Positions 79 to 3,931 of a stretch of 64,000 bases of DNA are shown in pieces. Origin of the DNA: Myxacorys almedinensis A (lineage in GTDB: Bacteria; Cyanobacteriota; Cyanobacteriia; Leptolyngbyales; Leptolyngbyaceae); contig NZ_WVIE01000010.1 of NCBI RefSeq assembly GCF_010091945.1, positions 1 through 64,000 of the forward strand, in the 5' to 3' direction. The first letter of the stretch is position 1, and each line of letters begins with the position of its first letter. The notes beneath the pieces were generated by a model. The model ran no database searches and had not been told where the DNA came from. It saw only the letters and a list, made by a program, of their open reading frames with translations. A program made the translations under genes and the position numbers.

Positions 79-1443
79 TTAAGCCAGTAGCGCCTCTGCA
101 TTAACGGTGTTCTGTTGCTCGATCCGAGAGACGGCGTAGCTTAGCAGCAATCGCTGCTCGATATTGCGCTTTGCACTGGGGCACGGTTCCAAGCCTTCTT
201 GCCAAGCTTTGGGGCAGGCTCCGCCGCACACCGGTAGCATTCGGCAAGATGGACAGTTAAACTCACCCCGTCGCACACGCTGGGTAAAATCGCCTAAGCG
301 ATCGCGCGTGCCAGACATGGATTGACCGTTAAGATGCTCGATCGCATACTCGTTTGGCGTTCCGTAAGCCGGCACGTAGGATACTTCAGTGCAGTTATAC
401 ACCAAGCCATCGGCGTCAACTAATTCAGAATGAGGACGGGTCGCCATGCAGGTGATCGGTTGCCGAGCCGGAATTAATTTTGTTGAGAATCCTAGCTCGA
501 TTTTTTCGCTCATCCACTGGATTTCCCACGCGGCAAACTCATCGGCAGAGAGAGAACGGGTGTGAGCATCATTTCCCCAAGAATGAATCGGGGCGACATA
601 GAAATTGATTCGGTCTTGCACCCCTTCTTCTGCAAACTTTAATAACAGTGGCGTAACAGATTCATAATTCTGAGCATCAACATTACAGCGAACGCTAACA
701 TAAACATCAAGATCTGTGCGACGAGCCACTGCAACTGTATTAGCAAAAATTTTCTCAAACGTTGGCATTCCCGATTTTTGCATGCGCCGAGCATCGTGAA
801 ACTCTGCCAAGCCATCGATGGTAATTTCGAGCAATCTCACATCAAACTCTTGGACTAGCTCGGTGGCAACTGCCTCGGTTAAGGCAAGTCCGTTTGTTAC
901 CATTTTTGATTCGTACACGCAGCCAAACTCTTCTGCCAAGGCGCGAAACTTGGGTGCTAGATTGCGAATGACGGGCAAGCCAATTAAGGGTTCTGCGCCA
1001 AACCAAGTGACCCCAAAGGTGCGAAACTGCCGCTCGGAAAGCTTAGTACGGGCGCGTTCTAGCAACCGCTCTTGATCGATATCACTCATTTGTTTGTTTC
1101 GGTGTTCTTGCCCACAATAATGGCAGCCAAGCTGACACATGGCAGTAGGCTGAACGCTGAAAAAGAGTGTGTCATCGTCTTGCGAAGCAGCGTCATTGCG
1201 ATCGAGGATGGTCATCAGTTCGTCTTCGCTAGATGGCACCAAAAGTTCCATTTCCACCAGATCTGCCACCATGTCTTGCGAGAGTTGCTCGAACGCTCCT
1301 GTTTCTAACAAAGTCCAGCTTGCGTCGTCGATCGCACACACGTTTGAGGTGCGGGTTGCAAATAGAACTCGCTTAAACTGCGTTCCAATTTCATCAAAAA
1401 AAGGTTGAGTTACAACGTGATATCGAGACAGTTTCAGAGTCAT
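79..1443 (-). CDS. Radical SAM/SPASM peptide maturase
   Basis: This 454-residue protein is a radical SAM enzyme that probably modifies the peptide encoded just upstream at 1625-2059. The [4Fe-4S]/SAM motif CQLGCHYC has Cys at residues 103, 107 and 110 (CxxxCxxC). The C-terminal SPASM domain shows Cys332, Cys351, the block CPSCRMLPVCGGAC (Cys397, 400, 406, 410) and Cys421, the ligand pattern for two auxiliary clusters. The first 90 residues precede the barrel and may be a winged-helix leader-recognition domain, as in other SPASM maturases. The ATG at 1443 has an AGGAAG ribosome site. Same strand and 181 bp spacing suggest co-transcription with the precursor, with a hairpin in between. Family assignment is firm. 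The chemistry (thioether, C-C crosslink, epimerisation or other) cannot be read from the sequence. Confidence 0.9.
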   Translation of the reverse strand: MTLKLSRYHVVTQPFFDEIGTQFKRVLFATRTSNVCAIDDASWTLLETGAFEQLSQDMVADLVEMELLVPSSEDELMTILDRNDAASQDDDTLFFSVQPTAMCQLGCHYCGQEHRNKQMSDIDQERLLERARTKLSERQFRTFGVTWFGAEPLIGLPVIRNLAPKFRALAEEFGCVYESKMVTNGLALTEAVATELVQEFDVRLLEITIDGLAEFHDARRMQKSGMPTFEKIFANTVAVARRTDLDVYVSVRCNVDAQNYESVTPLLLKFAEEGVQDRINFYVAPIHSWGNDAHTRSLSADEFAAWEIQWMSEKIELGFSTKLIPARQPITCMATRPHSELVDADGLVYNCTEVSYVPAYGTPNEYAIEHLNGQSMSGTRDRLGDFTQRVRRGEFNCPSCRMLPVCGGACPKAWQEGLEPCPSAKRNIEQRLLLSYAVSRIEQQNTVNAEALLA

Positions 1444-1512
1444 TGAGTCTTCCTCGCGATTTAATCAAAACGTGAATGTGCCATCAACCAATCGATGCGT
1501 GCAGTCTGGTTT

Positions 1513-1538
1513 CCCTTCTCCCCCAGCGGAGAGAAGGG
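1513..1538 (-). terminator. Hairpin between precursor and maturase genes
   Basis: CCCTTCTC and GAGAAGGG form an 8 bp perfect stem around a 10 nt loop. It lies about 90 nt after the precursor stop and 70 nt before the maturase start. It has no U-run in the direction of transcription, so it looks more like a processing or partial-termination hairpin that would keep maturase levels below precursor levels than a full terminator. Function is inferred. Confidence 0.4.
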
Positions 1539-1624
1539 ACTAACTAGGGATTCAGACGAACCTAACCGCGATCGCACTTGCACTGCCGCTGCACTGCCGC
1601 CGTGTTCATCGGGGTTTGCTCGGC

Positions 1625-2059
1625 TTAGCGCTGAAGCCGTTGCTGTACCGGGTAAATCACCTCTGACCCACCGGGAATTGGGCTAGCCGCGCAGCCGCCC
1701 GTGTTGATGCTGCCGCCGCCATCACACATGACGGAGCCTTTTTTCAAGCCGGGTAACTTTTCGATGCCGCGAGTTTCAAGTCCAGGAATCGGGCTAGCCG
1801 CACAGCCGCCTGTGTTAGTACTGCCGCCGCCATCACAGGTGACGGTGCCTTTTTTCAGCGTAGGCAGTTTTTCCAACATTGGGCTGTGCCGCAACGAAGA
1901 AGAAGCATCAAGGCTGAGATTGGCTTGACTGAGAAGATGACCCATTGAGCTAGAAACGGGTGTAGCCTCAGCAGAGGGTGAGATCGCGGCAAAGCCAGTC
2001 ATGGCGACTAGACCGAGCACAAACTTGACTTGACCTAAACCTAATTTGTTCGTAGCCAT
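1625..2059 (-). CDS. Putative RiPP precursor with two Cys/Gly-rich core repeats
   Basis: This 144-residue protein begins with a signal-peptide-like leader: basic start, hydrophobic residues 12-25, and an AEA-T cleavage-like site at about 30-33. A Ser/Leu-rich linker follows. Two 32-residue repeats lie at residues 62-93 and 99-130 and match at 27 of 32 positions. Each contains KLPxLKKG, then CDGGGS, NTGGC and AASPIPG, so each has two Cys 11 residues apart (75/86 and 112/123). The repeats contain no aromatic residue. The ATG at 2059 is chosen over an upstream ATG at 2119 because it has an AAGGAG ribosome site at good spacing. The neighbouring SPASM enzyme makes a RiPP precursor likely. The leader resembles cyanobacterial GrrA precursors (Gly-rich repeat, radical SAM-associated), but the core is not the GrrA type. 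I do not recognise the core family. Confidence 0.75.
   Translation of the reverse strand: MATNKLGLGQVKFVLGLVAMTGFAAISPSAEATPVSSSMGHLLSQANLSLDASSSLRHSPMLEKLPTLKKGTVTCDGGGSTNTGGCAASPIPGLETRGIEKLPGLKKGSVMCDGGGSINTGGCAASPIPGGSEVIYPVQQRLQR
1670..1876 (-). repeat. Two 96-bp core-peptide repeats (period 111 bp)
   Basis: The first unit is at 1781-1876 and the second at 1670-1765. They differ by many synonymous changes but only five amino-acid changes, which suggests selection on the peptide sequence rather than a fresh duplication. Confidence 0.85.
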
Positions 2060-2337
2060 GAATTTCTCCTTAAAATGATGAGTGCTTACTAAACAGAGCA
2101 ATGTCATCCAATGACTCATCGTTACTCCCCGTTGAGTTACCTTTACTTAGCAACAAAAGGCAAAGCTGAAGGGAATTTCAGACGTTTCATTCGATGTTTC
2201 TCTGATGACTTAATTGTTGAAGATAAACCGCGATCGCAGGGATACCCACACGGGTAATTTGCTCAAAAAAGAATTTTTACCGAAAAATAAACGACAGGAA
2301 CAAGACAGCGATCGCGCTGATCTAGCACAATGAATTT

Positions 2338-3742
<1,405 letters not shown>

Positions 3743-3857
3743 GCGAAAGGCAGTGACCAGAAGTTCGTAATCAAGCGATTTCCCATCTACTTCATCACTA
3801 GAGCAGTGAAAAAACGTCCCGTCTTTCTAAGTTTGCTATCATAATTTCGACAGGTTT

Positions 3858-3931
3858 GGGGCTGTAGCTCAGTTGGATAGAGCGACCGCCTCCTAAGCGG
3901 TAGGTCGAGGGTTCGAGTCCCGCCAGTCCCG
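3858..3931 (+). tRNA. tRNA-Arg (anticodon CCT)
   Basis: A 74-nt cloverleaf can be drawn. The acceptor stem pairs GGGGCTG with CAGTCCC, with one G-U pair. The D arm contains AGCTCAGTTGGATAGAGC, the anticodon loop is CTCCTAA with stem ACCGC/GCGGT, and the T loop is TTCGAGT. The T stem has one A-G mismatch. The discriminator is G, and the CCA end is not encoded, so it must be added after transcription. The tRNA nucleotidyltransferase gene at 8475-11264 could supply it. Confidence 0.93.

Follow-up and report, generated by a model that had tools for sequence, protein, structure and literature searches.

In the GrrA/GrrM (OscA/OscB) systems, Gly-rich repeats are combined with a signal-like leader, and the triceptide maturases GrrM/OscB use an aromatic core residue as the cyclophane partner. 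Other radical S-adenosylmethionine (SAM) enzymes form thioethers. For the streptococcal peptide NxxcA, review passages (PMC8326336, PMC13361665) report that the radical SAM enzyme NxxcB forms a thioether between Cys23 and the β-carbon of Asn20, and in the CX3D motif of PapB/freyrasin the Cys stands before the acceptor, according to a passage of PMC9413430. Here we describe a pair of adjacent genes in Myxacorys almedinensis A, encoding a small repeat-bearing peptide and a radical SAM/SPASM enzyme. They lie at positions 79-2059 of a 64,000-nucleotide stretch (contig NZ_WVIE01000010.1, positions 1 to 64,000), which we refer to as the window. An earlier reading of the window (the original prediction) had proposed an undescribed system for a ribosomally synthesized and post-translationally modified peptide (RiPP) at this locus.

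We interpret the pair as a two-gene RiPP system in which an Asn-Cys thioether maturase may act on two exported cores, a reading for which we consider the evidence evenly balanced when it is taken as a whole. Its parts differ in strength. It is nearly certain that the two genes are a precursor and its maturase, and formation of a Cys thioether is likely; Asn as the acceptor is a choice that could go either way. Related loci are referred to below by L numbers.

The precursor and maturase genes

In the list of open reading frames (ORFs), both genes are on the minus strand. The precursor gene (1625-2059) encodes 144 residues from an ATG at 2059, and the maturase ORF (79-1443, 454 residues) is located downstream of it after a gap of 181 bases. 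The precursor frame stays open upstream as far as an ATG at 2119; the start at 2059 was preferred because it is directly preceded, at a distance of 6 nt, by AAGGAG (2066-2071, minus strand), a probable ribosome-binding site that is identical in the sister species. This species, Myxacorys californica WJT36-NPBG1, is the second Myxacorys genome holding the pair, and the two genes are adjacent there as well (precursor ortholog at L031:4390-4815). Protein identity between the species is 82% for the precursor and 92% for the maturase. The region upstream of the precursor is largely conserved between them, and the intergenic stretch is poorly conserved.

Both genes are under strong purifying selection between the two Myxacorys genomes. 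The ratio of nonsynonymous to synonymous substitution rates (dN/dS) is 0.047 for the maturase and 0.078 for the precursor, where synonymous sites are nearly saturated (dS 1.37). Within the precursor, dN/dS is 0.098 in the leader and 0.054 in the repeat region; repeat 1 alone is less constrained (0.21), and for repeat 2 alone, synonymous changes are too numerous for the ratio to be computed. Since the divergence between repeats 1 and 2 within each genome (dS about 1.1) resembles the value between species, the repeat duplication is probably older than the split of the two Myxacorys species.

The precursor has no match to a curated family in ncbifam or Pfam at E-values up to 1, and it lacks the aroma-sacti leader domain (NF045560, cut-off 30 bits) by the same ncbifam search. 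By hydropathy, residues 1-32 (1964-2059, minus strand) resemble a signal peptide: a basic start with two basic and no acidic residues is followed by the hydropathy peak FVLGLVAMTGFAAIS at residue 13 and then by AEA|TP. Further on, the gene holds a direct repeat of 76 nt (87% identity, spacing 111 nt). The two 32-residue repeats of the original prediction are real, their length being only roughly right: the period is 37 residues and the common unit 30 residues, of which 26 are identical. Each unit opens with KLPxLKKG; after a spacer of three residues come CDGGGS, a single variable position, NTGGC and AASPIPG. Repeat 1 (residues 64-93; 1781-1870, minus strand) reads KLPTLKKG followed by TVT-CDGGGS-T-NTGGC-AASPIPG, and repeat 2 (residues 101-130; 1670-1759, minus strand) reads KLPGLKKG followed by SVM-CDGGGS-I-NTGGC-AASPIPG. 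In the sister species, 29 of the 30 residues of repeat 2 are the same, and repeat 1 starts with RVP and ends with ATSPIPQ. CDGGGS and NTGGC are identical in all four copies, the variable residue between them being T, I, H or V. The repeats in the window contain no F, W, Y or H, as had been stated for aromatic residues; repeat 1 of the sister species has one His.

The assignment of the enzyme as a SPASM radical SAM protein, also made in the original prediction, holds at the level of domain scores, as the maturase passes both Pfam Radical_SAM PF04055 (38.5 bits, cut-off 29.5) and the SPASM domain model TIGR04085 (36.6 bits, cut-off 27). The top full-length curated model is TIGR04463, with 191.4 bits over residues 40-435 against a cut-off of 525. 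Every other full-length family listed is likewise under its cut-off, among them CefB (145 bits), geopeptide (124), Clo7bot (111), PapB (NF047865, 72 bits, cut-off 340) and GrrM (TIGR04261, 42.1 bits, cut-off 310). The radical SAM motif CQLGCHYC (1114-1137, minus strand) supplies C103, C107 and C110, and the SPASM region (181-450, minus strand) contains seven cysteines, C332 to C421; all of these are invariant among the five aligned enzymes. The latter are arranged as C332-x13-G-x4-C351 ... C397-x2-C-x5-C-x3-C410 ... C421, which we take to correspond to the SPASM cysteine consensus. The N-terminal part (residues 1-90; 1174-1443, minus strand) is a putative RiPP recognition element, with predicted strands, two helices and a strand in a winged-helix-like order in a low-confidence structure model. 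That model has a mean predicted local distance difference test (pLDDT) score of 59.8, falling below 50 from residue 350 onward. Its nearest solved folds are 5why and 5wgg (Foldseek E 6e-11), presumably the SCIFF maturase CteB; 5wgg, titled a thioether-forming maturase in the PDB, aligns with model residues 6-443 (Z 18.5, root-mean-square deviation 4.2, 355 aligned, 15% identity). TigE is also among the best folds (Z 16.0, root-mean-square deviation 5.2, 356 aligned). Because the model is weak, the fold comparison supports only the enzyme class and is uninformative on the active site.

Related maturases and their peptides

Matches to the maturase among named genomes were limited to four: M. californica (92% identity), two Streptomyces and one Streptacidiphilus (35-36%). 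Ten of the 26 plasmid records with a maturase match were examined. The top match, on the Rhizobium etli plasmid pRetIE4803b (L049; 41.6% identity over 96%), is the nearest maturase outside the genus. At E-values up to 1e-40, a search across the class Actinomycetes returned 1 of 394 genomes, the search centre itself; denser searches, centres included, returned 7 of 246 genomes for the genus to which L032 belongs and 10 of 249 for the L034 family.

The original prediction had proposed placing the maturase among characterized SPASM clades by phylogeny. A tree built from 31 maturases has a well-supported split (100/100) between a clade of 22 rows (19 actinobacterial ones, Rhizobium and both Myxacorys) and nine other rows, among them TIGR04463, Clo7bot and representatives of family f14. 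Rhizobium is the neighbor of Myxacorys (94/90; long branches were flagged), and L061, L075, L076 and L077 make up a single subclade (100/99). GrrM and CbpB were included in an earlier 27-row tree, which placed both far outside and left the fork between Rhizobium and Myxacorys open. Both trees exclude three truncated or short sequences (L038, L039 and L070) and duplicates of a locus; the 31-row tree also excludes L040, L062, L063, CbpB and GrrM as long branches.

A short Cys peptide is encoded just upstream of the enzyme at 16 of the 20 clade loci outside Myxacorys, and in each of these peptides Asn stands exactly three residues before a Cys. Where several ORFs were listed, the one nearest the enzyme was taken. 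The 16 peptides were sorted by eye into six apparently unrelated types. The motif is NSGC in Rhizobium, where the peptide is an annotated gene, NGNC in Streptomyces NBC_01281 (L050), NGVC in L060 and L074, NGSC in L078 and NFIC in L079. The ten peptides of the aroma-sacti kind carry NVLC, NVVC or NTVC; the NF045560 family model was run on L032 and L034, and the others were judged alike by eye. In 15 of the 16 peptides the Cys closes the sequence or stands one residue before its end. In Myxacorys, the Asn is found at position -4 (NTGGC) in each of the four repeat copies, two per species.

When residues were shuffled with Cys held fixed, Asn fell at -3 in a fraction of 0.048-0.151 per type, which gives a product of ~4e-7 across six types before any correction for the post hoc choice of residue and offset. 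L078 and L079 are two types that were read only once the idea had been recorded, and their joint shuffle odds are 0.006. In the first shuffle test, on five types including Myxacorys, a residue shared within positions -4 to -3 occurred in 0.3% of shuffles.

Proposed maturation and alternative readings

The Cys, Asp, Asn and Thr positions of the repeats had all been named as likely reaction sites. Because the peptides of the relatives share an Asn near a Cys, we favor the Asn and Cys of NTGGC, located at 1802-1816 in repeat 1 and 1691-1705 in repeat 2 (both minus strand). In the proposed pathway, the N-terminal domain of the maturase would bind the precursor in the cytoplasm, and the KLPxLKKG before each core may perhaps serve as an internal recognition sequence. 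The enzyme, with SAM and iron-sulfur clusters, would then join Cys86 to Asn82 and Cys123 to Asn119; these crosslinks are proposed because Asn and Cys of NxxcA stand in the same order at almost the same distance. By analogy with NxxcB, the acceptor would most likely be the β-carbon of Asn. The expected product has two five-residue thioether rings, each accompanied by a loss of 2 Da. For the other Cys of each core, within CDGGGS, the relatives' peptides offer nothing clearly equivalent; it could act as a further donor, stay free, pair in a disulfide or go unused. Finally, the signal-peptide-like start would export the product; we propose the general secretory route because the leader is signal-like and no transporter or protease gene is seen beside the pair.

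Several points weigh against this reading. Hydropathy is the sole ground for export, and the structure model of the maturase is weak. The Asn-before-Cys motif was recognized post hoc, on the first five types, and when the positions considered in the first shuffle test are widened to -4 to -1, a shared residue arises in 5% of shuffles. Myxacorys itself fails the strict -3 rule and fits only the wider one, and its precursor aligns with the Rhizobium peptide at chance level only. The L050 peptide (ORF 3672-3773, plus strand, 33 residues, ending in LNGNC), which is absent from the gene table shown, was chosen by eye among 32 ORFs. At 4 of the 20 loci (L061, L075, L076 and L077) no such peptide was found: the candidate peptide of L061 has no Asn-before-Cys motif, and in the larger stretches taken for these loci (L080-L083) the sole Cys peptide on the maturase strand with Asn at -3 or -4 is more than 3 kb from the maturase, in L082. 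Asn-x-x-Cys is also not exclusive to the clade and occurs occasionally outside it, since among ten control peptides beside more distant maturases, nine of which have Cys, two carry one such Cys (the Clo7bot peptide of L068, 1 of 6 Cys, and the L088 peptide, 1 of 5). Lastly, NxxcB is absent from the maturase tree.

The most serious alternative, possible though unlikely, retains a Cys thioether maturase with other acceptors, which would give either Cys-X2-Gly or Cys-X4-Ser rings at the α-carbon, as in streptosactin, or a bond to a neighboring Asp, as with PapB. Each core has CDGGGS, invariant in the four repeats, where a Gly follows the first Cys at +3. In streptosactin, Cys31 is reported to be joined to Gly34 and Cys25 to Ser28 (a passage of PMC8172795), and PapB accepts Cys-Asp spacings of 0 to 6 (a passage of PMC9413430). 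However, the peptides of the nearest maturases showed no CDGGG and instead have in common the Asn before Cys, and the PapB score of the maturase is far below the cut-off of that model.

It is quite unlikely that the enzyme performs another radical reaction on the cores, such as epimerization or carbon-carbon bond formation, with the two Cys disulfide-bonded after export. Radical SAM RiPP enzymes are chemically varied, TvgB for example producing cyclopropylglycine (a passage of PMC9062424), and TigE is one of the better fold matches to the model. Against this, several of the best curated models (TIGR04463, CefB, Clo7bot) have Cys-rich targets, and the terminal or near-terminal Cys of the clade peptides fits Cys as the reacting residue.

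We regard it as very improbable that the small gene encodes a secreted or structural peptide that merely adjoins the enzyme. The poorly conserved intergenic stretch would agree with such a peptide, as would the absence of genes for transport, proteolysis or further tailoring next to the pair in the sister species, but the precursor is found only beside the maturase ortholog, and the short Cys peptides upstream of the enzyme at the related loci repeat the arrangement. The last possibility is an aromatic cyclophane (triceptide) system akin to GrrA/GrrM. In its favor is a resemblance to GrrA, with Gly-rich repeats behind a signal-like leader, in a cyanobacterium. It is nevertheless negligible and was rejected, as had been anticipated, by the hidden Markov model score (42 bits vs 310) and the distance in the 27-row tree, the cores in the window having no aromatic residue. 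A search for GrrM at E-values up to 1e-20 gave no match in the two Myxacorys genomes; 3 of the 19 genomes searched matched, one of them over the cut-off.

The Asn-Cys thioether reading can be extended to an exported, multi-core Asn-Cys member with Asn-X3-Cys rings, whose size would be new, the other Cys tied to Asp by the same maturase, guidance by KLPxLKKG and a leader that starts as a Sec signal; in this full form we consider it doubtful. If true, Asn-Cys maturation would span Streptomycetaceae, rhizobia and cyanobacteria with unrelated precursors. In the review passages PMC8326336 and PMC13361665, the Asn-Cys β-thioether is described from streptococci only. A clade with six Asn-x-x-Cys peptide types in two further phyla and a cyanobacterial variant would provide a testable rule for the chemistry of its clusters. 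The Myxacorys peptide would be a convenient substrate, having two near-identical sites, cores without aromatic residues and an expected loss of 2 Da per ring.

Distribution of the pair

Co-occurrence of precursor and maturase in other cyanobacteria had been suggested as a check of the pairing. At an E-value of 1e-20, the maturase was found in 8 of the 388 genomes of the class, namely the two Myxacorys and six of family f14 with 26-30% identity; within the order it was found in 2 of 42 genomes. The precursor profile matched in 10 of the 388 genomes at E-values up to 0.05. Only the two Myxacorys matches are convincing, the other eight having E-values of 0.011-0.033 and six of them containing stops. 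The pairing is complete but narrow, because the precursor is convincing only in the two genomes with the maturase ortholog. This agrees with the suggestion of a real pair, and together with adjacency in both genomes and purifying selection it bears out the original precursor-maturase assignment with two cores; the restriction to one genus, 2 of 388 genomes, weakens the original interpretation. No match to the precursor was found in plasmids.

The f14 maturases adjoin peptides different from the Myxacorys precursor. In one genus of this family, four related maturases (L030, L035, L036 and L037) are preceded by Cys-bearing peptides of at least three kinds, read from ORFs chosen by eye, and the substrate may change fast beside a conserved enzyme. 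The L037 peptide combines a CGGG core with a signal-like start. It was not counted as kin of the Myxacorys precursor because their alignment is at chance level and the peptide does not recur in other genomes of its family (2 of 6 at E-values up to 0.1, being itself and one at 0.08). A phage origin of the maturase was also rejected, with no relative in viral contigs and three distant phage-record matches at 23-27% identity.

Genomic context

The window starts at the contig end, so the downstream neighbors of the maturase were taken from the sister species. There, the pair is flanked by a divergent DUF6464 gene, named from the copy in the window, and a convergent aspartyl-tRNA synthetase gene, which we named from its ORF. 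No transporter, protease or second tailoring gene was seen directly beside the pair at this locus. No promoter-like sites were found near the pair, and one terminator-like site was found, not above chance. The only RNA family found is a tRNA gene at 3858-3931 (plus strand), downstream of a tocopherol cyclase gene.

Several other loci were noted during the comparison. On the Rhizobium etli plasmid, which is typed conjugative, genes for a 77-residue peptide, the maturase, a JmjC-domain protein and a GNAT protein stand in a row in what looks like an uncharacterized RiPP cluster. In L050, genes for the maturase, a methyltransferase, a SagB-type dehydrogenase and a major facilitator superfamily (MFS) protein follow the 33-residue ORF. 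The flanks of the subclade of L061 and L075-L077 contain an apparent subtilisin-like protease and further radical SAM-like proteins, read from ORFs by eye. A LuxR-type regulator at L032:3971-4504 (minus strand) ends in a domain matching the aroma-sacti leader (NF045560, 73 bits) and closes with VEGQDLKLL, without Asn-x-x-Cys; a similar ORF was seen by eye in L034, and the L032 regulator is perhaps a decoy or a sensor of the leader. L088 (PQ520162.1) is an unverified partial Enterococcus phage record of 2.8 kb with a transposase-like gene, a radical SAM/SPASM-like maturase and a Cys-rich 46-residue peptide with one NGNC, and looks like host DNA. A Methylovirgula plasmid (L051:4001-9065) carries a CbpA/CbpB peptide system, and some 2 kb away is another radical SAM gene.

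Comparison with known systems

The triceptide maturases GrrM/OscB need an aromatic core residue, and in this the Myxacorys system differs from GrrA/GrrM, its repeats in the window having none. CteB (5wgg/5why, as assigned above) is the best solved fold over nearly the whole length of the maturase, with a low sequence identity of 15%. Unlike the Myxacorys precursor, SCIFF precursors contain some six Cys within 45 residues, according to a passage of PMC8172795. By definition, the thioether goes to an α-carbon in sactipeptides and to a carbon other than the α-carbon in ranthipeptides, for which PapB is a maturase. The thioether of PapB/freyrasin, to the β-carbon of Asp, is a chemical analog; the Myxacorys maturase scores 72 bits against the 340 of the PapB model. 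TIGR04463 (rSAM_vs_C_rich) is the best curated model, but its cut-off is not reached, and its named tree member belongs to the nine-row group outside the clade.

Closer in sequence are the clade members themselves. The maturases of the aroma-sacti clusters of Streptomycetaceae (NF045560) are 35-38% identical to that of Myxacorys over nearly full length, and their peptide ends in Asn-x-x-Cys; it has another leader, and in L032 flavoprotein-like (by family match) and MFS-like genes follow downstream. Rhizobium etli has the nearest maturase outside the genus and NSGC in its peptide, which differs in having neither repeat nor signal-like start and in being accompanied by downstream JmjC and GNAT genes.

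The resemblance to NxxcA/NxxcB consists of a radical SAM RiPP enzyme and an Asn a few residues before a Cys in the core. The Asn is at -3 there and at -4 in Myxacorys, which also has two cores and a signal-like start; given this spacing and a comparison confined to motifs, the Myxacorys pair appears similar to an NxxC RiPP and is not proven to be one. By the cut-offs of the respective families, it is outside TIGR04463, PapB and aroma-sacti. No literature on TIGR04463 was found, and none on the pair among the matches listed, judged by title or start of abstract. With a precursor that matches no curated family, the pair itself seems undescribed, in agreement with that part of the original prediction, and its chemistry is probably of a known class, because the Asn-Cys β-thioether is already reported, in the review passages, for NxxcA/NxxcB.

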